The notes under the pieces were generated by a model, which did not search any database, was not told the DNA's origin, and was given only the letters and a program-made list of their open reading frames with translations. Below, piece after piece: positions 4,010 to 20,939 of a DNA stretch of 23,819 bases. This DNA comes from a virus. Position numbers and translations under genes: made by a program. How positions within the stretch are numbered: position 1 is the first letter of the stretch; each line of letters begins with the position of its first letter. The stretch is from positions 1-23,819 of the IMG/VR virus record IMGVR_UViG_3300020141_000082; one strand, 5' to 3'.

Positions 4010-4701
4010 TTAACCTAGTGGATCAGCCATTTAAATGTGTTCATTGTAACAAAGGGTTTATGAAAGAAAAAACCCTTGTTGCCCACATGTGTGAGCAAAA
4101 AAGGCGGGTCCTACAGAAGGATGAGAAACGTGTTCAAATGGGATTTTTCGCCTACAACAGATTTTATCAACTAACGCAAAACGCCAAGAAGCAGAAATCA
4201 TACAGTGATTTTTGTAAAGGTGCGTACTATAATGCCTTTGTCAAGTTCGGCAGTTTTATCAATAATGTTGAACCACTTTATCCAGAAAAATTCATAGATT
4301 TTGTGATAAAAAGCGGAGTCAAATTGGACCACTGGTGCCGTGATGAACTGTATGACAAGTATCTGTCAGACCTGGTTAAAGTAGAACCAGTTGAAAGTGC
4401 ATTACAACGTAGCCTACAATATATGATGGAGTGGGCTGAGGAAAATAATTCAGATTTTACCCATTATTTCAGGTATGTAAACATTAATAGAGCAGTACAC
4501 AACGTCAGGGATGGAAAAATAAGTCCTTGGATGATCATGAATTGCCCCAGTGGAGTAGAGCTGTTAAAGAAGTTTAATGACGAGCAATTAGACCTTGTTA
4601 ATCAAACATTAGACATTGCTTTTTGGGCCAAAAAAATTCGAGAAAATCCAGCAGATGTTGCGTTGGTCAAAGAAGTATGTAAAGAAGCAGGAATAGAATG
4701 A
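4006..4701 (+). CDS. Zinc-finger protein of unknown function
   Basis: A 231-residue protein with an N-terminal zinc finger: F-K-C-x2-C-x3-F followed by a basic helix that ends in A-H-M-C-E-Q-K-R-R (residues about 9-34), so Cys11, Cys14 and His27 plus Cys29 are the likely ligands. The remaining 200 residues are mostly helical and rich in aromatic and charged residues, with no recognisable enzyme motif. It starts at GTG 4006, which overlaps the previous TGA, and its own stop overlaps the next ATG (ATGA). The finger suggests DNA or RNA binding. Position between clamp-loader-like and sugar genes would fit a replication accessory factor, but this is inference. Confidence 0.8.
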   Translation: MINLVDQPFKCVHCNKGFMKEKTLVAHMCEQKRRVLQKDEKRVQMGFFAYNRFYQLTQNAKKQKSYSDFCKGAYYNAFVKFGSFINNVEPLYPEKFIDFVIKSGVKLDHWCRDELYDKYLSDLVKVEPVESALQRSLQYMMEWAEENNSDFTHYFRYVNINRAVHNVRDGKISPWMIMNCPSGVELLKKFNDEQLDLVNQTLDIAFWAKKIRENPADVALVKEVCKEAGIE

Positions 4702-5072
4702 CACAATTAAAAGGACTAGTAAACAAAGGATGGGGTTCAGAATTCATCTGGATCACTAACGACAAATACTGTAGCAAATTTCTTAATTTTGAAACAGGTG
4801 GAAAGTTTAGCATGCACTTCCATCGTGAAAAAATAGAAACTTGGTATGTACAGAGTGGCAAATTTGAAATCGAAATCATTGATACTAATAATGCCAGTAT
4901 CTATAAAAAAATTGTTACCCAAGGAATGATCCATCATAACGATCCGTTGGTTCCTCATCGTGTTACTTGTATAGAAGCAGGAACTATCATTGAGGTATCA
5001 ACACCTGATAGCGTAGAAGACAATTATCGTGTACTACCTGGAGACAGTCAACGTGACAACAGTAATCGTTAA
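4698..5072 (+). CDS. Small single-domain cupin, sugar-metabolism type
   Basis: A 124-residue protein with one cupin barrel. Motif 1 is FSMHFHREKIETWYVQSGKFEIEI (about 36-58; His39, His41, Glu45 as likely metal ligands) and motif 2 is PLVPHRVTCIEAGTIIEVSTP (His98 region). This pattern matches the C-terminal domain of mannose-6-phosphate isomerase/GDP-mannose pyrophosphorylase type cupins and small cupins that lie beside heptose genes. It starts with an ATGA overlap and its 3' end overlaps the nucleotidyltransferase gene that follows. Together with the next two genes it forms a sugar cassette. The exact substrate cannot be read from the sequence; isomerase, epimerase or binding protein are all possible. 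Confidence 0.85.
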   Translation: MTQLKGLVNKGWGSEFIWITNDKYCSKFLNFETGGKFSMHFHREKIETWYVQSGKFEIEIIDTNNASIYKKIVTQGMIHHNDPLVPHRVTCIEAGTIIEVSTPDSVEDNYRVLPGDSQRDNSNR

Positions 5073-5454
5073 CGGTACATTTGATATTCTCCATCCTGGG
5101 CATATTGCCATGTTAAATACTGCCCGTAGCCTAGGTGACTACCTCATTGTTTGTATTGACACAGATCGTCGCGTTAAAGAACTTAAAGGTGACAGTCGCC
5201 CAATCAATGATCAAAATGTTCGAAAGATAATGTTAAGCAATCTTAAAGCAGTAGACATTGTAGAATTTTTTGATAGTCAAGAAGATCTCATTAATCTCAT
5301 TAAACTTTATAAACCAGATATTATGGTCAAGGGTAGTGATTGGAAAGGGAAAAGTGTAGTGGCCCAACAGTACGTTAAGGAAATATATTGGTATGACAGA
5401 ATCGACGAATACTCAACAACAAGAACCATTCAGGATATTATTAATAGGGGATAA
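5053..5454 (+). CDS. hldC: HldE C-domain/RfaE2-like heptose-1-phosphate nucleotidyltransferase
   Basis: A 133-residue cytidylyltransferase-fold protein. The nucleotide-binding signature is NGTFDILHPGHIAML (HxGH at about residues 16-19), followed by DTDRRVKELKG and KGSDWKGK, and an STTRTIQDI tail where family members have S-T-T. It matches the adenylyltransferase half of HldE (RfaE domain II), which turns D-glycero-beta-D-manno-heptose 1-phosphate and ATP into ADP-heptose; glycerol-3-phosphate cytidylyltransferase is the main alternative. The start chosen is GTG 5053, preceded by GGAG at 5040-5043 and giving a family-like N-terminus (VTTVIVNGTFD). GTG 5029 would give an 8-residue extension. 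The gene overlaps the cupin by 20 bases and the kinase by 62. Confidence 0.85.
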   Translation: MTTVIVNGTFDILHPGHIAMLNTARSLGDYLIVCIDTDRRVKELKGDSRPINDQNVRKIMLSNLKAVDIVEFFDSQEDLINLIKLYKPDIMVKGSDWKGKSVVAQQYVKEIYWYDRIDEYSTTRTIQDIINRG

Positions 5455-6196
5455 TTGTGTTGATAGATACATGATAGGAGTAGTTGAAAGACTAAGTCCA
5501 GAGGCTCCAGTACCTATCTTTAACATAAAAGATTCATATGATAAAGTTGGAATGTCGGCAAACGTTCGAGAAAATTTAATCAACTTAAATTGCGATGTGA
5601 CATTTGTTACCAATAAAGGAAACATTGTAAAGACACGATTTATTGATCAAAAGTCCGGACAGCATCTACTTAGGGTAGATCATGATGACCCAGAAGTTGA
5701 ACTATGGGACGGCACTATTGGTGAATTTCCTTGGGACATATATCATGCTGTTGTTGTTTCAGATTATAACAAAGGTTTCCTAACTTACGAAAGCATTGAG
5801 CAAATTATTAAGTCAGCTGGTTGTCCCGTGTTTATTGACACTAAAAAACAAGATTTATCAAGATTTGGAGCACCACATGTCTATGTTAAGATTAACGAAT
5901 TGGAATATAAAAACAGATATTCTATTCCACAAAATTTAATTGTTACTCTAGGTGATAAGGGCGCAATGGTTAAACAACTCGGTAAAGAAACTATGACTTA
6001 TACAACCAAACAAGTTGAAGTTATGGATGTATGCGGGTGTGGTGATACTTTTTTGGCATCACTAGCAGTCCAGTATCTCTTTACAACTGACATAGAAAAA
6101 GCTATACTATTTGCTAATGTTGCCGCAGGTATTTCGGTACAACACCGAGGCAACTACGCACCAAGTTACGACGAGATTAGACGTGCCGGATATTGA
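5393..6196 (+). CDS. hldA: HldE N-domain/RfaE1-like heptose-7-phosphate kinase (PfkB family)
   Basis: A 267-residue ribokinase/PfkB-family kinase. The N-terminus ILLIGDNCVDRYMIGxVxRLSPEAPVPIF is the RfaE/HldE kinase signature. VVVSDYNKGFL corresponds to the conserved SDYxKG segment and residues near 218-226 read DVCGCGDTF, equal to the D-T-x-G-A-G-D anion hole and catalytic Asp but with Cys in place of Ala. The usual reaction is ATP-dependent phosphorylation of D-glycero-beta-D-manno-heptose 7-phosphate at C1. The domain is shorter than bacterial kinases of about 315 residues. Bacterial HldE has kinase first and adenylyltransferase second in one chain; here they are separate and reversed. The ATG at 5393 lies 62 bases inside the previous gene. 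Confidence 0.85.
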   Translation: MTESTNTQQQEPFRILLIGDNCVDRYMIGVVERLSPEAPVPIFNIKDSYDKVGMSANVRENLINLNCDVTFVTNKGNIVKTRFIDQKSGQHLLRVDHDDPEVELWDGTIGEFPWDIYHAVVVSDYNKGFLTYESIEQIIKSAGCPVFIDTKKQDLSRFGAPHVYVKINELEYKNRYSIPQNLIVTLGDKGAMVKQLGKETMTYTTKQVEVMDVCGCGDTFLASLAVQYLFTTDIEKAILFANVAAGISVQHRGNYAPSYDEIRRAGY

Positions 6197-6761
6197 TATT
6201 GACTTTGCTGATAGAAAACGTGTGCTTGATATTGTCAAGCATGTGCCTGCTTCAATGAAGGATAATGACACTTTTAAAAAGCACAATACCGGAGTATATT
6301 GTCATTCTATTCCGTACAATCCTTTAACAGGATTATCATCGATTGATTACAAAGAAGCCGAAGACAGAGGTTATTTTAAGATTGATTTCTTAAATGTTAG
6401 TATGTACAGTGGTATAAAAGATGAAGCCCATCTTATTAGACTAATGGAGACTGAACCACTATGGGATCTACTGGAACAAGACGATTTTACGAATTTGTTG
6501 TTTCACATAAACGGGTATGGAGGCTTGCTACGCAAGCAGAAGCCGACGAGTATCTTAGAACTGGCCGTGTGCCTAGCCTTGATCCGCCCAGGCAAGCGAT
6601 ACCTACAAGATTCGACGAAGAGCGATATTATGGACCAGATATGGATGAAGCCGACGAATGGTGATTATCATTTTAAGAAAGCTCATGCTGTGGCCTATGC
6701 TCATGCCATTGTAGTACAGATGAATTTAATCTGCGAAGGTATCAGCTACGAGTTTTCTTAG
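6183..6761 (+). CDS. Minimal DNA polymerase III alpha (DnaE)-like protein
   Basis: A 192-residue protein with short blocks in the order found in the polymerase core of bacterial DnaE. They are PDIDIDFADR near the N-terminus (Asp5 and Asp7 match the two metal-binding Asp of the PDxDxDF motif), HNTGVYCHSIP (34-44, matching the HAAGV segment), YFKIDFLNVS (64-73, Asp68 matching the third catalytic Asp), LLRKQKPTSILELAVCLALIRPGKR (115-139) and HFKKAHAVAYAHAIV (163-177, matching FxKSHAxAYA). PHP, thumb, OB and tau-binding parts are absent; E. coli DnaE is 1160 residues. GTG 6183 puts the first motif at the N-terminus and overlaps the kinase by 14 bases. Whether it polymerises DNA is unknown. Confidence 0.8.
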   Translation: MPDIDIDFADRKRVLDIVKHVPASMKDNDTFKKHNTGVYCHSIPYNPLTGLSSIDYKEAEDRGYFKIDFLNVSMYSGIKDEAHLIRLMETEPLWDLLEQDDFTNLLFHINGYGGLLRKQKPTSILELAVCLALIRPGKRYLQDSTKSDIMDQIWMKPTNGDYHFKKAHAVAYAHAIVVQMNLICEGISYEFS

Positions 6762-7125
6762 GGCTTCTAACGAGTTGGATACTTTTACGTTTAACTCGTT
6801 TCTCGGCTATTTCGCTTAGATTTACCACAGGACCAAACACTACTTCAACGTCTTTACTGTTGAAAGTTTTTATATAGGGTCTAAATTCTGACATTTCCTT
6901 CTTTAGGAAAATATTGATAGGAATCTTTCGATTGCTTTCCCACCACCATACCTCGCCCATTTCTAAGAACGCTTGTTTCTCGTTTTCTGATCGTATGTCC
7001 GCATAACTGTAGATGCTGGTAACGTTGTCGTCTAAGTTGACAATGATGCCCACATACTCGTTACCGGAGGTCTTAATACACGTTATAAACGGAAAGTTTT
7101 TTTGGAAGTCGTCCTTGTTCGTCAT
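6742..7125 (-). CDS. Conserved-looking phage protein of unknown function
   Basis: A 127-residue protein on the minus strand; its last 20 bases overlap the 3' end of the convergent polymerase-like gene. It has a beta-rich N-terminus (FPFITCIKTSGNEYVGIIVNLDDN), the striking WWWESNRKIPINIFL segment near residues 59-73, and a basic tail (EKRVKRKSIQLVRSPKKTR). No membrane segment or enzyme motif is visible. The basic C-terminus suggests nucleic-acid or membrane-surface contact. It is the only minus-strand gene in the first 10.6 kb, and an exact T4-type late box lies 35 bases upstream of its ATG, so late expression is likely. I do not recognise a named family. Confidence 0.75.
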   Translation of the reverse strand: MTNKDDFQKNFPFITCIKTSGNEYVGIIVNLDDNVTSIYSYADIRSENEKQAFLEMGEVWWWESNRKIPINIFLKKEMSEFRPYIKTFNSKDVEVVFGPVVNLSEIAEKRVKRKSIQLVRSPKKTRS

Positions 7126-8263: not shown

Positions 8264-9262
8264 ATGAATCTCATACAGGCTTCTGTTCAAACTTTCTTGC
8301 CTCCTAAAAGGAAGACTACTCCTAGCGGCTGGACAAGTTTTAACGCTGTATGTTGTCATCATAACGGAGACCAACGCGATACAAGAAAACGCGGGGGTGT
8401 TCTGTTTAGTGAAGATGGGTTCCAATATCATTGTTTTAACTGCGGATTCAAAGCAGGTTGGACCCCGGGTAGACTTCTAAGCAAAAATACAAAGAACTTG
8501 TTTCAATGGATGGGAATCCCGTCTGATGAAATAACAAAATTGAATTTGGAAGCACTTCGTAGTAAAGAAGACCAACCACTTGCTAAACCTATAATAAAAT
8601 TTGAGTTAGCTGACAGACCCTTGCCACAGGACTGTAAGTCCATATTAAAAATACTTGAGGCTGAACCTAACGATGAAGTGTTAGCAGTGGTTGATTACCT
8701 TACTGATCGAGGAATGGATCTCGAATGGTATGACTGGATGTGGAGTTCGGAAAACGGATATCGAGATAGAGTAATCATACCTTTCTATCAAGAAGGACGG
8801 GTAGTAGGATACACAGGAAGAAAAATAAAATCTGGTAAACCCAAGTATCTCACTGATAGCCAAAACGGTTATGTGTTCAACATAGACCGACAAACAGAAG
8901 ATAGAGAATACGTTATCGTAGTTGAAGGACAGTTCGATGCTATTGCTATCGATGGAGTAGCAATCATGACCAATGAACCAAATGCTACACAAATAGCCAG
9001 GATAAAACAATTAGGCAAAACTGTTATTGCTGTGCCCGATAGAGATAAGCCTGGCGCCAAAATGATAGAACATGCCCTAGAAAACGAGTGGAGTGTCAGT
9101 ATGCCACCGTGGGGTGACGATGTTAAAGACTGTGCTGATGCTGTTAAGAGATATGGTAGACTGTATACGCTTTTCACGATCTTACAGTACAGAGAAACTA
9201 ACGAGATAAAAATACAACTGCTAAAGAAAAAACTAGAGAACTTACAAGATGCTGAAACCTAA
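8264..9262 (+). CDS. 61: DnaG-type primase, T4 gp61-like
   Basis: A 332-residue primase, close to T4 gp61 (342). The N-terminal zinc ribbon uses Cys30/Cys31 and the following His pair with Cys57 and Cys60 (YHCFNCGFKAGW). A TOPRIM core follows, with RDRVIIPFY and VVGYTGRKI leading to VIVVEGQFDAIAID (the metal-binding Glu) and AVPDRDKPGAKM (the DxD). A helical C-terminus overlaps the helicase gene by 14 bases. It makes RNA primers for lagging-strand synthesis and works as a complex with the gp41 hexamer encoded next. The ATG at 8264 lies nine bases after the previous stop, with no strong ribosome site. All expected catalytic motifs are present. Confidence 0.92.
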   Translation: MNLIQASVQTFLPPKRKTTPSGWTSFNAVCCHHNGDQRDTRKRGGVLFSEDGFQYHCFNCGFKAGWTPGRLLSKNTKNLFQWMGIPSDEITKLNLEALRSKEDQPLAKPIIKFELADRPLPQDCKSILKILEAEPNDEVLAVVDYLTDRGMDLEWYDWMWSSENGYRDRVIIPFYQEGRVVGYTGRKIKSGKPKYLTDSQNGYVFNIDRQTEDREYVIVVEGQFDAIAIDGVAIMTNEPNATQIARIKQLGKTVIAVPDRDKPGAKMIEHALENEWSVSMPPWGDDVKDCADAVKRYGRLYTLFTILQYRETNEIKIQLLKKKLENLQDAET

Positions 9263-10694
9263 CTATAACGCAGAGATGCAAAAACTATATCTGGAGATGT
9301 TTCTCTCAGATGCTGAAACTTTTATCCGTTGTCAGAACATTTTTAACCCAGAAAACTTTGACAAACGTTATCAAGATTCTGCTGCCTTTGTGACAAAATA
9401 TGTAGATGACTATAAGGTAATGCCGGAAGTTAGCATTGTAAATGCCTCCTGTGGGTCGGACTTTGAAGCAGTTTCTTTGGCCAGAGAAAATTACGATTGG
9501 CTAATGAACGAGTTTGAAACTTTTAGTAGGCACAAGAGTCTTGAACGTGCTATTTTACAGTCAGCAGATCTGTTAGAAAAGGGAGAATATAATCCTGTTG
9601 AAAAATTGATCAAGGATGCTATACAGATCAGTTTGAACAAGGACATGGGCACAGATTACTGGGATGATCCCCGTGCTCGACTATTAAAACTCAAAGACAA
9701 TAACGGACAGATTAGTACAGGATATCCCAGCATTGATAGGAAACTGTATGGCGGATTCAAACGTGGAGAATTGAATATCTGGTGCGCTGGATCAGGCGGT
9801 GGTAAAAGTTTGTTCTTGGCAAACCTTGGACTTAACTTTTCTCTTGCTGGATTGAACGTCATCTACTTTACATTTGAGTTGAGTGAAGAACTAGTGGGTA
9901 TGCGTGTTGACAGCATGATCACTAGCGTGGCATCCAAAGATATCTTTAAGAATCTTGATGACGTTGAAATGAAGGTCAAGCTCACTGGAAAGAGAGCAGG
10001 CGGAATGCAGATAAAATACATGCCTTCCGGTAAGAATTGTAATGATTTAAGGTCATATTTAAAAGAATATCAAGTAAAAACAGGCAAAAAACCTGACATT
10101 ATTTTAGTTGACTACTTAGACCTAATGATGCCACTAAGTGTCAAAGTAAGCCCAAGTGACCTATTTGTCAAGGACAAATATGTTTCGGAAGAACTGCGAA
10201 ACTTTGCGATGGAAACACAGGCTGTAGTAGTAACTGCGGCACAGTTGAATCGTTCAGCAGTTGAAGAAATTGAGTTTGATCACAGTCATATTAGCGGTGG
10301 ATTGAGTAAGATTCAAACTGCTGACAACGTGATTGGTATCTTTACCAGTCGTGCTATGCGTGAACGTGGACGGTACCAAATACAGTTTATGAAGACACGC
10401 TCAAGTAGCGGTGTTGGACAAAAAGTTGATTTGGAATTTGACGTTGACAGTCTGCGTATTAAAGATCTCGGAGACGAAGAAGATAGCGGTAGTTTTAATC
10501 AACAACGTAGTGCGGCAAGTTCTGCGCTAATTGATGGACTAAAGAAAACCAGCGTAGTAACTGCTACTAACGTAGATCCAGAAACTGGTGAGATTGATCC
10601 GACTAAAGGAGTGTCTGCTCCTAAACAAAAAGTATCAATTAAACCAAGAGATATTAGGGATTTGCTGAGTAGCTTAAATCCAGAAAAAGATTAA
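9249..10694 (+). CDS. 41: Replicative DNA helicase, T4 gp41-like (DnaB family)
   Basis: A 481-residue DnaB/RecA-fold helicase, close to T4 gp41 (475). An N-terminal helical domain (about 1-150) is followed by the RecA core: Walker A AGSGGGKS (180-187), H1a VIYFTFELSEE (about 204-214), Walker B IILVDYLDLM near 285-294, H3 VVVTAAQLNRSA, and the SGGLSKIQTADNVIGI segment. The C-terminal 70 residues are low-complexity and charged, as in gp41. It is the hexameric 5'-3' motor that unwinds the fork and activates primase. ATG 9249 overlaps the primase end. Its stop meets the stop of the convergent YqgE-like gene within four bases, so no spacer exists for a conventional terminator. Confidence 0.93.
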   Translation: MLKPNYNAEMQKLYLEMFLSDAETFIRCQNIFNPENFDKRYQDSAAFVTKYVDDYKVMPEVSIVNASCGSDFEAVSLARENYDWLMNEFETFSRHKSLERAILQSADLLEKGEYNPVEKLIKDAIQISLNKDMGTDYWDDPRARLLKLKDNNGQISTGYPSIDRKLYGGFKRGELNIWCAGSGGGKSLFLANLGLNFSLAGLNVIYFTFELSEELVGMRVDSMITSVASKDIFKNLDDVEMKVKLTGKRAGGMQIKYMPSGKNCNDLRSYLKEYQVKTGKKPDIILVDYLDLMMPLSVKVSPSDLFVKDKYVSEELRNFAMETQAVVVTAAQLNRSAVEEIEFDHSHISGGLSKIQTADNVIGIFTSRAMRERGRYQIQFMKTRSSSGVGQKVDLEFDVDSLRIKDLGDEEDSGSFNQQRSAASSALIDGLKKTSVVTATNVDPETGEIDPTKGVSAPKQKVSIKPRDIRDLLSSLNPEKD

Positions 10695-11251
10695 AGCCAG
10701 CTAGATATTTTACTTTGGGCAACTATTTCGATTCCTCGTTGCCATTGTTCTTCTTCAGTTAAATGGAACACAGATTCTACCGTGGCAGGAGTATCTAGCC
10801 ATCTATTTTGTTGTTTCCAGGGAGGGTCTCCCTGATACTCTCCGTCCAGTTGTCCAGCATCCCATCCACATACTCCTACGCAGGTTCTAAACAGCGCAGG
10901 ACCTTGATTTTGAGCAATTGCAGCTAGTACTCCAATGTCGTTTGTAATACCAATGTCATCTGTAATGGCCATTGTTGTTGAGCTAGACCAATCTAGTGAA
11001 TGAATAATGTGTACTCTGTTATTTTCTACTGGGCCGCCGATAAAAATTTTATCTTGCTTACTGCTCATGATTCCTGCCGATCTCATGATATGATCTAAAC
11101 TTATATTAGGTGTGGGTTTATTAACCATTATGCCCCAAGCACCGCCCGGCCCATGTTTAGCAATAAGTATCACACTTTTAGAGAAATAGGGATCCTCACT
11201 CTTGGGTTGTGATACAAGAATATTTCCAGTTAAATTGATTTTACCTCTCAT
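10691..11251 (-). CDS. YqgE/AlgH (DUF179) family protein
   Basis: A 186-residue protein with the hallmarks of the YqgE/AlgH family: N-terminal LTGNILVSQPKSEDPYFSKSVILIAKHGPGGAWGIMVNKP, then FIGGPVENNRVHIIHS, and CVGVCGWDAGQLDGEYQGDPPW (bacterial consensus GYAGWxAGQLExE). The length equals bacterial family members (about 185), so it is intact. The cellular role of YqgE is not firmly established; an AlgH name comes from alginate regulation. It is a host-type gene, unusual on a phage. It lies on the minus strand, convergent with the helicase and divergent from the nucleotidyltransferase-like gene. The ATG at 11251 gives the expected family N-terminus. Confidence 0.88.
   Translation of the reverse strand: MRGKINLTGNILVSQPKSEDPYFSKSVILIAKHGPGGAWGIMVNKPTPNISLDHIMRSAGIMSSKQDKIFIGGPVENNRVHIIHSLDWSSSTTMAITDDIGITNDIGVLAAIAQNQGPALFRTCVGVCGWDAGQLDGEYQGDPPWKQQNRWLDTPATVESVFHLTEEEQWQRGIEIVAQSKISSWL

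Positions 11252-12511: not shown

Positions 12512-12515
<4 letters not shown>
12003..12515 (+). CDS. HAD-superfamily 5'-nucleotidase-like phosphatase
   Basis: A 170-residue HAD hydrolase. Motif I is [13 protein letters not shown] (nucleophile Asp7 and general acid Asp9), motif II is [10 protein letters not shown] with its Thr, a motif III Lys may be that of YSEDKQVH, and motif IV is [11 protein letters not shown]. This matches the 5'(3')-deoxyribonucleotidase type, which dephosphorylates nucleoside monophosphates. A GmhB-type heptose bisphosphate phosphatase, which would complete the heptose pathway, is a less likely alternative because the sequence lacks that family's metal-binding Cys cluster. 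It has its own sigma70 promoter and no leader. Its stop overlaps the stop of the convergent tail fibre gene by four bases. Confidence 0.85.
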
Positions 12516-18508
<5,993 letters not shown>

Positions 18509-18556: not shown

Positions 18557-18623
18557 TAGTTCTTAAGTTAAGTGAGAAATCCTAGATTCCACATTAATCG
18601 TGTTTAGAAGGATAAATTTACAT

Positions 18624-20180
18624 ATGAAAATCACGATTATAGGCGGCGGCACCGCAGGTTGGCTCAGTGCTCTATGGATTACCAAGCTGTTACCCTATCA
18701 CCAGGTAACTGTGATCGACAGCACAAAGATAGATATCATTGGTGTTGGAGAAGGTACTACTGGTAAATTCCTGGACATCATACAGAATATCAAAGGTCCT
18801 TTTGGCATCGATGAAGCGGAATTTATCCGAGAAACACAGGCCACTCAGAAGATGGGCATACGTTTTACCAATTGGCGGGGACAGGGAGAGTCTTGGATAA
18901 GCCCCATAGATAACAGCCCCAGCATGCACGCACCTTGGGATTGGTGCTTGATCGATCACTGGCAACGGCACGGACTACGCGGTCTACACACCAGCACCAT
19001 ATGCGGAACGCTGGCAGAACACAATCTCAGCAGTGTGGCCAAAGATCTCAGCGGAACCTACGGACAGGGCGCTTACCATTTTGACGGACATCTAGTGGGC
19101 AAGTACTTTAAACGGCTGGCAGGACCTCTGTGTGAACAGATCATAGACGCAGAAGTCGTGGGACATGAGTTGGACAGTAACGGAAACCTAGCCCGAGTCA
19201 AACTCAGTACAGATACCTGGCATGCCAGCGACTATTGGGTGGACTGCTCGGGTTTCGCCCGTGTGTTAGCACCTGCTGTCAATCCCGGGTGGCACAGCTA
19301 TAAAGACAGCCTGACCTGCGATTCAACCCTGCTGTTTCAAACCAAACACTGGCACCTGCGTGACACCATAGAACCCTTGACTCTGGCTGAAGCCATGGAT
19401 TCGGGCTGGCGATTCCGCATACCCACACAGAGCCGATACGGTAATGGCTATGTGTTTGACAGTTCAACGACCACAGCAGATCAAGCACTGGAAGAACTAC
19501 ACCGCAAAGATCCCAAGATAGAAGCCCGTAGAACACTGAAGTTTGACCCGGGTCGCATGGAACGACCTTTTAGCCGTAATGTGGCCTTTATTGGGCTATC
19601 AGCAGTATTTCTGGAACCCCTACAGGCCACCAGCATACACGGCACCATAGCACAGTTAGAATATTTGGAAACCAATATACTGCGCGGAGAGCAACTGCCC
19701 AAGGGTCCTTGGGAATTGGATCACATCAACGACATACTGAGACAGACCTTTGATCAGTATGCGGATCTCATACATCTACACTATCGATCGGGCCGCACAG
19801 ACACTGACTTTTGGCGCAAGCAGACCTACGACATGGATGTACGGTCCCGAGTGGCACACCTACGTGAATTGGCTGAACGCCGATGGCCCATGCCCACTGA
19901 CTTTTATGTTCAGCGAGGCACTGCGGGCTATCCTGTGTTCATATATCCCATCCTGGCCTACGATTGGGTCAACATGAAGAGTGTGACCAAATACACGCCC
20001 CGAAGCACACGTAACTATCAAGACTATACCAGCGTCAAGCAACAGATAGTCAAGAACAGCATGCCACACTCCCGGTTGATTGGTCTGGCCTTACAGGGTC
20101 AACTGCCCCCATTAGCACAGCTGAGCTTGCCCAGACCCTTGCCACCCGTCCAGGCCAGACTACATCCCCTGCTACGTTAG
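18624..20180 (+). CDS. Flavin-dependent halogenase, tryptophan halogenase family
   Basis: A 518-residue FAD enzyme. The N-terminus has the Rossmann motif IIGGGTAGW (GxGxxG). IGVGEGTTGKF carries Lys48, the expected relay lysine for hypohalous acid. GWRFRIPTQSRYGNGYVF (261-278) is the halogenase signature with Phe at the second Trp of WxWxIP. GLSAVFLEPLQATSIHG (324-340) carries Glu331 and Ser337, as in PrnA-type enzymes. The family chlorinates, brominates or iodinates aromatic substrates using FADH2, oxygen and halide; a marine cyanophage halogenase (VirX1) is known. The ATG at 18624 follows AGAAGG at 18606-18611; GTG 18600 would add eight residues. No flavin reductase gene is in the window. 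The substrate is not readable. Confidence 0.88.
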   Translation: MKITIIGGGTAGWLSALWITKLLPYHQVTVIDSTKIDIIGVGEGTTGKFLDIIQNIKGPFGIDEAEFIRETQATQKMGIRFTNWRGQGESWISPIDNSPSMHAPWDWCLIDHWQRHGLRGLHTSTICGTLAEHNLSSVAKDLSGTYGQGAYHFDGHLVGKYFKRLAGPLCEQIIDAEVVGHELDSNGNLARVKLSTDTWHASDYWVDCSGFARVLAPAVNPGWHSYKDSLTCDSTLLFQTKHWHLRDTIEPLTLAEAMDSGWRFRIPTQSRYGNGYVFDSSTTTADQALEELHRKDPKIEARRTLKFDPGRMERPFSRNVAFIGLSAVFLEPLQATSIHGTIAQLEYLETNILRGEQLPKGPWELDHINDILRQTFDQYADLIHLHYRSGRTDTDFWRKQTYDMDVRSRVAHLRELAERRWPMPTDFYVQRGTAGYPVFIYPILAYDWVNMKSVTKYTPRSTRNYQDYTSVKQQIVKNSMPHSRLIGLALQGQLPPLAQLSLPRPLPPVQARLHPLLR

Positions 20181-20197: not shown

Positions 20198-20233
20198 GCG
20201 GCGAAGCCGCGAAGCGGTTAAAAAAGATTTTTT
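20198..20233. terminator. Inverted-repeat region between convergent genes, possible terminator
   Basis: GCGGC-GAA-GCCGC at 20198-20210 is a perfect GC-rich hairpin with a three-base loop; it overlaps an alternative CCGC-GAA-GCGG at 20207-20217. A6-GA-T6 follows at 20220-20233. The first hairpin could end the halogenase transcript, but the T-run is 17 bases away, so a textbook intrinsic terminator is not complete. The region sits exactly between the stops of the convergent halogenase and oxygenase genes. Confidence 0.5.
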
Positions 20234-20787
20234 CAAGGCATTAAAACCCTAGTTAAAAACTCACGCTCATAGTGTTCACCACTAAGGCTCAGTCTCCTCA
20301 CGCTAGTGCCGGGTTCCACATAGTGTGTCAACCATCCTGGAAAGATGATCAACTGCCCCCTAACAGGCTGGAATCGTTGGCAGTATTGATGCTGTGCTCC
20401 GACCCCGGGTCTAGGAGGGTGTTGAAAGTAGTCCCATGCGGTATTGCCCTTGGGATCTAGAAACACTATGGCACCCGCGTCATGATCAACATCTAGATAG
20501 TAGGTCCAGCCTACAGGGCTGACGCCGTGTGCGTGTGGCAGTATGTGTCGACCTGCGGCTAGATCGTTGAGCCATACTTGCCCGGGTGATAACTGCGCTA
20601 GATCCACTGAGTCAAAGCCACAAGATTCAAAATAGCTGTTGACAGCTGAATCTATCTGTGTCTTTAGATTGGGTAAGAATAGACCTTGGATCCAATCTTC
20701 ACGCCATGTGGAATGGAAGTCGGGCACTGTAGTATCTATGCTGAGATCAATGACTTCTACCACTGTGGGCCAAAGAGTGTGTTTCAT
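20233..20787 (-). CDS. Fe(II)/2-oxoglutarate-dependent oxygenase
   Basis: A 184-residue double-stranded beta-helix oxygenase of the putative 2OG-Fe(II) type seen in cyanophages (TIGR02466-like). Residues 74-114 read NDLAAGRHILPHAHGVSPVGWTYYLD and later GAIVFLDPKG: His85 and His87 fall on the HxH/HxD iron motif of the family. FPGWLTHYVEPG (149-160) provides the distal His155, and Arg164-Arg165 near RRLSLSG would hold 2-oxoglutarate. Substrate unknown. The start at 20787 overlaps the stop of a 51-residue gene (ATGA), and this coupling favours it over the longer frame that begins at 20874. It is convergent with the halogenase gene and last in a three-gene operon. Confidence 0.85.
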   Translation of the reverse strand: MKHTLWPTVVEVIDLSIDTTVPDFHSTWREDWIQGLFLPNLKTQIDSAVNSYFESCGFDSVDLAQLSPGQVWLNDLAAGRHILPHAHGVSPVGWTYYLDVDHDAGAIVFLDPKGNTAWDYFQHPPRPGVGAQHQYCQRFQPVRGQLIIFPGWLTHYVEPGTSVRRLSLSGEHYEREFLTRVLMP

Positions 20788-20939
20788 ATGAGCCAACCCC
20801 ATATGAAACCTATAAACAGGCCCAGTGAAAAGCCCATGACTGAGCACCACAAGAGTAAAGCAATGTAAGACCAATCATCTGTGCTCATGGAGTATCGGGG
20901 CTGATACCAATGATTGAAGAAACGATTGACTCGGGTCAT
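20784..20939 (-). CDS. 51-residue single-span membrane protein
   Basis: A short open frame of 51 codons plus stop. It reads MTRVNRFFNHWYQPRYS, a basic and aromatic N-terminus, then SYIALLLWCSVMGFSLGLFI and GFIWGWLI, one long membrane span close to the C-terminus. Positive residues at the start predict an N-in topology. Its ATG overlaps the TGA of the upstream 117-residue gene, and its TGA overlaps the ATG of the oxygenase gene; two ATGA junctions in a row are strong evidence that it is real and translated. It overlaps a longer spurious extension of the oxygenase frame. Function unknown; anchor or partner of the oxygenase is a guess. Confidence 0.75.
   Translation of the reverse strand: MTRVNRFFNHWYQPRYSMSTDDWSYIALLLWCSVMGFSLGLFIGFIWGWLI

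Follow-up and report, generated by a model that had tools for sequence, protein, structure and literature searches.

What can a phage protein of 192 residues do when it carries the active-site blocks of bacterial DNA polymerase III (PolIII) alpha, but not the PHP, thumb and C-terminal domains of that enzyme? The question is raised by an open frame of 192 codons plus stop, starting with GTG, in a 23.8-kb fragment of an uncultivated, partial phage genome. This fragment, which is the whole of the source record, is called the window here. A sequence-only reading had recognised the gene as DnaE-like and had taken its product to be a self-contained tiny protein: a specialised polymerase, a nucleotidyltransferase, or a decoy of the host clamp or tau. 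The gene and its motif blocks, placed on E. coli DnaE, are as follows.

6183..6761, plus strand: C-terminal half of a split minimal PolIII alpha (PHROG 11778), called the C-half below; the GTG is equivalent to DnaE Met399, and the stop codon is counted in
6186..6206, plus strand: PDIDIDF, residues 2-8, invariant in 56 relatives; in the DnaE alignment Asp3 and Asp5 correspond to D401 and D403, and Asp7 to D405
6279..6296, plus strand: KHNTGV block, residues 33-38, corresponding to DnaE K510-H511..G514
6378..6392, plus strand: KIDFL block, residues 66-70; Lys66 corresponds to DnaE K553 and the third catalytic aspartate, Asp68, to D555
6543..6593, plus strand: PTSILELAVCLALIRPG block, corresponding to DnaE ~625-641, the remaining part of the fingers
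6672..6701, plus strand: FKKAHAVAYA block, residues 164-173, corresponding to DnaE F756..H760..Y764

The GTG at 6183 is supported as the start codon, because most close relatives of the C-half have ATG at exactly the same position, directly before PDIDIDF. The gene is under purifying selection, with a dN/dS of about 0.13-0.25 in pairwise comparisons with five relatives. Relatives were found in 64 phage records and as 414 stretches in viral contigs. A pseudogene or a sequencing artefact is ruled out by the hundreds of homologous stretches and by the purifying selection.

All the PolIII alpha blocks are present in the right order, as had been noticed from the letters alone, with the PTSILELA..LALIRPG block at residues 121-137. 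The ordered set was reproduced by 0 of 200,000 residue shuffles, and it occurs a single time in the six frames of the window. Conservation of the C-half was followed in 56 non-redundant members, and also in a 47-row alignment. Invariant in the 56 members are Asp3, Asp5, Asp7, His34, Gly37, Lys66, Asp68, Arg135, Pro136, Phe164, Lys165, Lys166 and His168. The majority have counterparts that do not vary either in a set of eight DnaE proteins (D401, D403, D405, H511, G514, K553, D555, R639, P640, F756 and H760). In E. coli DnaE, catalysis depends on D401, D403 and D555. The earlier claim that three catalytic aspartates are kept is therefore correct, but their assignment to Asp5, Asp7 and Asp68 was wrong: the triad is Asp3, Asp5 and Asp68.

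In a profile search, the C-half matches phrog_11778, annotated 'DNA polymerase', with an E-value of 1.5e-64 (residues 3-185 on profile positions 8-193 of 197), followed by phrog_405, the full-length DnaE, with 1.6e-10. When compared profile to profile with a DnaE alignment, residues 32-138 match with an E-value of 1.8e-8. A simple Pfam scan lacks the sensitivity to recognise the C-half, and PF17657 stays below its cut-off (E 0.028). The search against DnaE profiles that had been proposed as a check is thus positive in the profile-profile comparison, but not in the Pfam scan. When cellular versions were looked for, at least 28 weak matches appeared in genome contigs, mostly over residues 10-137 only, and these look like ordinary DnaE. 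The C-half is not filed as standard DnaE, because the PHP, thumb and C-terminal domains are missing from its chain. The lack of PHP, thumb and tau-binding parts had been pointed out before and is borne out on the 192-residue chain; elsewhere in the genome, a PHP domain was found in none of 9 related genomes.

The GRGS region of DnaE is also outside the C-half, which starts at PDxDxDF. When genomes of relatives were searched with the full DnaE family, another piece of DnaE came to light at a separate place, matching PHROG 405 positions ~357-437. This partner, here called the N-half, is PHROG 11127, a protein of about 175 residues that carries the GRGS nucleotide-binding motif and scores over the Pfam cut-off against PF07733. 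In phage RaK2 it is ORF162 (YP_007007317), a protein of 172 residues annotated 'DNA polymerase', and the C-half there is ORF124 (YP_007007279). Its C-terminal end, GRGSSVSSYCLFLIGLHLVDSLKYDLDVNEFLKY, corresponds to the DnaE stretch directly upstream of PDxDxDF. In a profile comparison, residues 98-175 of a reference N-half align without gaps to DnaE 318-395, and GRGS does not vary among 57 sequences. Because the C-half starts at Met399/Pro400 of E. coli DnaE and the N-half stops at about 395, the cut leaves out no more than a few residues. The two halves tile DnaE almost without overlap or gap. The protein is thus to be seen not as self-contained but as the C-terminal half of an enzyme encoded by two genes, the other of which lies elsewhere and supplies the GRGS half that binds the nucleotide. 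Residues 1 to ~78 of the reference N-half (L129:5001-5531) lie outside the DnaE-matching part and are mostly well predicted, with helices.

Structure prediction places the two halves side by side on DnaE as well. The AlphaFold2 models of the single halves are good, with a mean pLDDT of 89.4 for the C-half and 88.4 for the N-half, and the top Foldseek matches for both are PolIII alpha chains. With VIA-align 2, residues 1-189 of the C-half superpose on E. coli DnaE 400-781 (2hnh) with Z 8.7 (rmsd 4.4, 183 residues aligned) and the C-half superposes on PolC 971-1296 (3f2b) with Z 9.2 (rmsd 3.7, 185 aligned), while the best unrelated chain reaches Z 3.4. The overlay on DnaE that had been suggested as a check therefore gives a matching palm and finger fold. 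Residues 81-177 of the N-half superpose on DnaE 279-397 (4jom) with Z 11.5 (rmsd 2.7, 97 aligned). The predicted folds thus match adjacent segments of DnaE, 279-397 and 400-781. On 5lew, the N-half covers 307-417 and the C-half 419-858. The main gaps of the C-half against DnaE are the thumb (after ~405) and part of the fingers (after ~642). The missing finger part holds eight residues that are invariant in the DnaE set: G657, T680, Q687, E688, Q689, R709, F727 and G735.

The two halves travel together. The N-half and the C-half are each listed for 60 phage records, and 57 records appear in both lists. Two of the records listed for one half only, Slicko01 (C-only) and RAS14 (N-only), were found to have both halves on a profile re-test, which took in one of three C-only and one of three N-only records and left aside four, including the 109-kb record PP728206. 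Exactly one of each half is present in all seven complete phages (Phosso, Atu_ph07, RaK2, PA5oct, Slicko01, RAS14 and SCTP-2), which also encode a family B polymerase and are without a PHP domain. The two genes lie far apart, from 11 kb in Slicko01 to 224 kb in Phosso. Slicko01, at 141 kb, is below the jumbo class and has both halves, so the split pair is not limited to jumbo phages. Four large, possibly incomplete contigs have one half only. The nearest long relative of the window, a 331-kb contig, carries a C-half with 72% identity and also an N-half.

A family B polymerase gene is present in 12 of 12 related genomes, which agrees with the earlier expectation that the two polymerases coexist, and there is none within the window. 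The N-half is likewise outside the 23.8-kb record. For the window phage, we infer both the partner and the family B polymerase from relatives, as neither is encoded in the 24-kb fragment. A fixed proofreading exonuclease was also looked for, and RNase_T/DnaQ-type proteins were seen in only 5 of 9 related genomes.

The genes downstream of the C-half belong, in part, to DNA replication:

6742..7125, minus strand: convergent ORF, PHROG 11637 (no assigned function), overlapping the 3' end of the C-half; a conserved neighbour, also in named phages
8264..9262, plus strand: DnaG-type primase (gp61-like), a conserved neighbour
9249..10694, plus strand: DnaB-like replicative helicase (gp41-like), a conserved neighbour

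In named phages, the order is C-half, small convergent ORF, virion or hypothetical protein, primase and gp41-type helicase, and it is the same in the window. A convergent ORF of at least 90 residues stands at the 3' end of the C-half in 82 of 87 relatives, including the 141-kb phage; a functional link of the PHROG 11637 ORF to the polymerase is putative. In RaK2 and Atu_ph07, a clamp-loader gene follows the N-half at a distance of about 1 kb, and in Phosso an AAA-ATPase gene is found downstream of the N-half. Thus, the C-half adjoins the primase and helicase, and the N-half is near the clamp loader.

The C-half is probably the metal- and template-binding half of a two-gene minimal family C (PolIII alpha) polymerase, that is, of a heterodimeric accessory enzyme. 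The N-half, as known from relatives, would supply the GRGS region, and the C-half the three catalytic aspartates, the K553-like lysine, the RPG block and the H760-like block. The two chains would pair across the cut and rebuild one active site of the polymerase-beta type. Folds of this type have the GS motif and the first catalytic strand in a single domain, and thus the two chains can be of use only when closely paired. The paired halves may then add nucleotides to a primer end, serving beside the family B replicase, most likely in primer extension or gap filling. Poor processivity is to be expected, because the thumb, the PHP domain and the clamp- and tau-binding parts are absent. A specialised polymerase or nucleotidyltransferase, as proposed from the sequence, therefore remains the best guess, but not as a single protein, since the gene encodes half of a pair.

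A bolder form of this proposal, to which we give slightly less than an even chance, is that a functional family C polymerase, cut between GRGS and the first catalytic strand, is put together in trans from the two small proteins, which have about 290 DnaE-like residues in total. Such an enzyme would be among the smallest of family C and would share DNA synthesis with the family B replicase. It is tempting to speculate that it might resemble the ancestral PolIII core. With a family C core reduced to two small proteins, nature provides a test of which parts of the bacterial replicase nucleotide transfer requires. A further question is why these phages keep a second, bacterial-type polymerase beside their family B enzyme.

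Copying of a template cannot be taken for granted, since a large part of the fingers, with the eight DnaE invariants, is absent. For the same reason, the main rival is an active nucleotidyltransferase made up of the two halves, which would not be template-directed and would add nucleotides to DNA ends, RNA or protein, having lost the fingers and thumb. In favour of this rival, both halves retain the residues that bind metal and nucleotide, while the thumb and most of the fingers are gone. However, the RPG and FKKxH blocks, which are typical of PolIII alpha and lie far from the metal site in the sequence, are invariant too, and the C-half gene is near the primase and helicase. We consider the rival unlikely, although it is the strongest of the alternatives.

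A non-catalytic role is considerably more doubtful. The C-half is small and stands among replication genes, and it might be a subunit or decoy that binds replisome proteins of the host or phage (the clamp, tau or DnaE partners). Yet every catalytic residue checked is invariant, the co-conserved N-half also keeps GRGS invariant, and the parts that bind the clamp and tau are absent; the decoy of the host clamp or tau that was suggested initially is disfavoured on these grounds. Even less probable is that the 192 residues are a complete polymerase or nucleotidyltransferase by themselves. The C-half has all three catalytic aspartates and is predicted to fold confidently alone, but in the polymerase-beta-type fold the GRGS region is needed for the phosphates of the nucleotide, and this region is absent from the C-half and invariant in the co-occurring N-half. 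The C-half does correspond to only part of a larger known enzyme, but there is a negligible chance that a dnaE gene captured from a host is decaying here; this is already contradicted by the low dN/dS, the hundreds of homologous stretches in viral contigs, and the conserved start codon and neighbourhood.

The preferred reading, a two-gene minimal polymerase, agrees with a known system. The split minimal PolIII alpha of group 2.2 jumbo phages has been described from genome comparison, and cooperation in one-strand synthesis or in repair was suggested (Iyer et al. 2021, PMC7824862). The CBB paper reports a truncated alpha subunit of 172 residues (PMC5259590), and the Atu_ph07 paper an alpha subunit (PMC6102473). 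A literature search limited to open-licence papers found no experimental study of the split enzyme. The window gene belongs to the same family (PHROG 11778, with 11127 as the partner) and has the same cut between an NTP-binding N-part and a metal- and template-binding C-part. In the group 2.2 phages, the halves are encoded by distant genes with a family B polymerase alongside, whereas the window fragment shows the C-half only. The window copy is one more copy of this published enzyme, found mostly in giant phages. New here are the exact cut site, the per-residue conservation in both halves, the adjacency of the folds on DnaE, the co-occurrence counts and the 141-kb phage.

Other family C polymerases are also related. 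E. coli DnaE (PF07733/PF17657) shares all main active-site motifs, their order, and the fold over DnaE 400-781. However, it is a single chain of 1160 residues, while the phages split the catalytic domain over two genes, and the C-half, with 192 residues, is without the PHP, thumb, index finger, HhH, OB and tau-binding parts. PolC of Gram-positive bacteria (3f2b), the best structural match to the C-half by Z (9.2), is by contrast a single long polypeptide that includes PHP and exonuclease domains. The full-length phage DnaE (PHROG 405), found for example in group 3.2 jumbo phages, actinophages and Pbunavirus, is also a phage-encoded family C polymerase. Unlike the split pair, it is a near-complete PolIII alpha encoded by a single gene, and it is the sole replicase type in its phages, according to Iyer et al. 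(PMC7824862).

The window copy differs from those of the group 2.2 phages in coming from an uncultivated partial genome and in having sugar genes directly upstream. At 4698-6196 on the plus strand, a cupin, an HldE-C-like adenylyltransferase (TIGR02199) and an HldE-N-like heptose-7-phosphate kinase (TIGR02198) overlap head to tail. Bacterial HldE combines both activities of this HldE-like pair, which here are encoded by two genes in the opposite order; the matches are below the curated cut-offs. The C-half does adjoin these genes in the window, as had been noted, but they are an incidental and not a fixed neighbour. The gene that stands ahead of the sugar cassette in the window has the C-half straight after its end (..KEAGIE) in one relative (L011). 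A functional link between the C-half and the sugar genes was rejected, since the latter are not at that spot in this relative.

Several other genes of the window lie beyond the helicase. An AlgH/DUF179 protein (PF02622, E 4.9e-33), of a family that is usually bacterial, is encoded at 10691-11251 on the minus strand. An ORF of 1998 residues (12512-18508, minus strand) has many collagen-like G-x-x repeats (GATGATG..) and repeated 18-letter units, and looks like a phage fibre protein. It is followed by a gene for a tryptophan-halogenase family protein (PF04820, E 6.9e-83) at 18600-20180 on the plus strand and, convergent to it, a gene for a 2OG-Fe(II) oxygenase (PF13759) at 20233-20874 on the minus strand.
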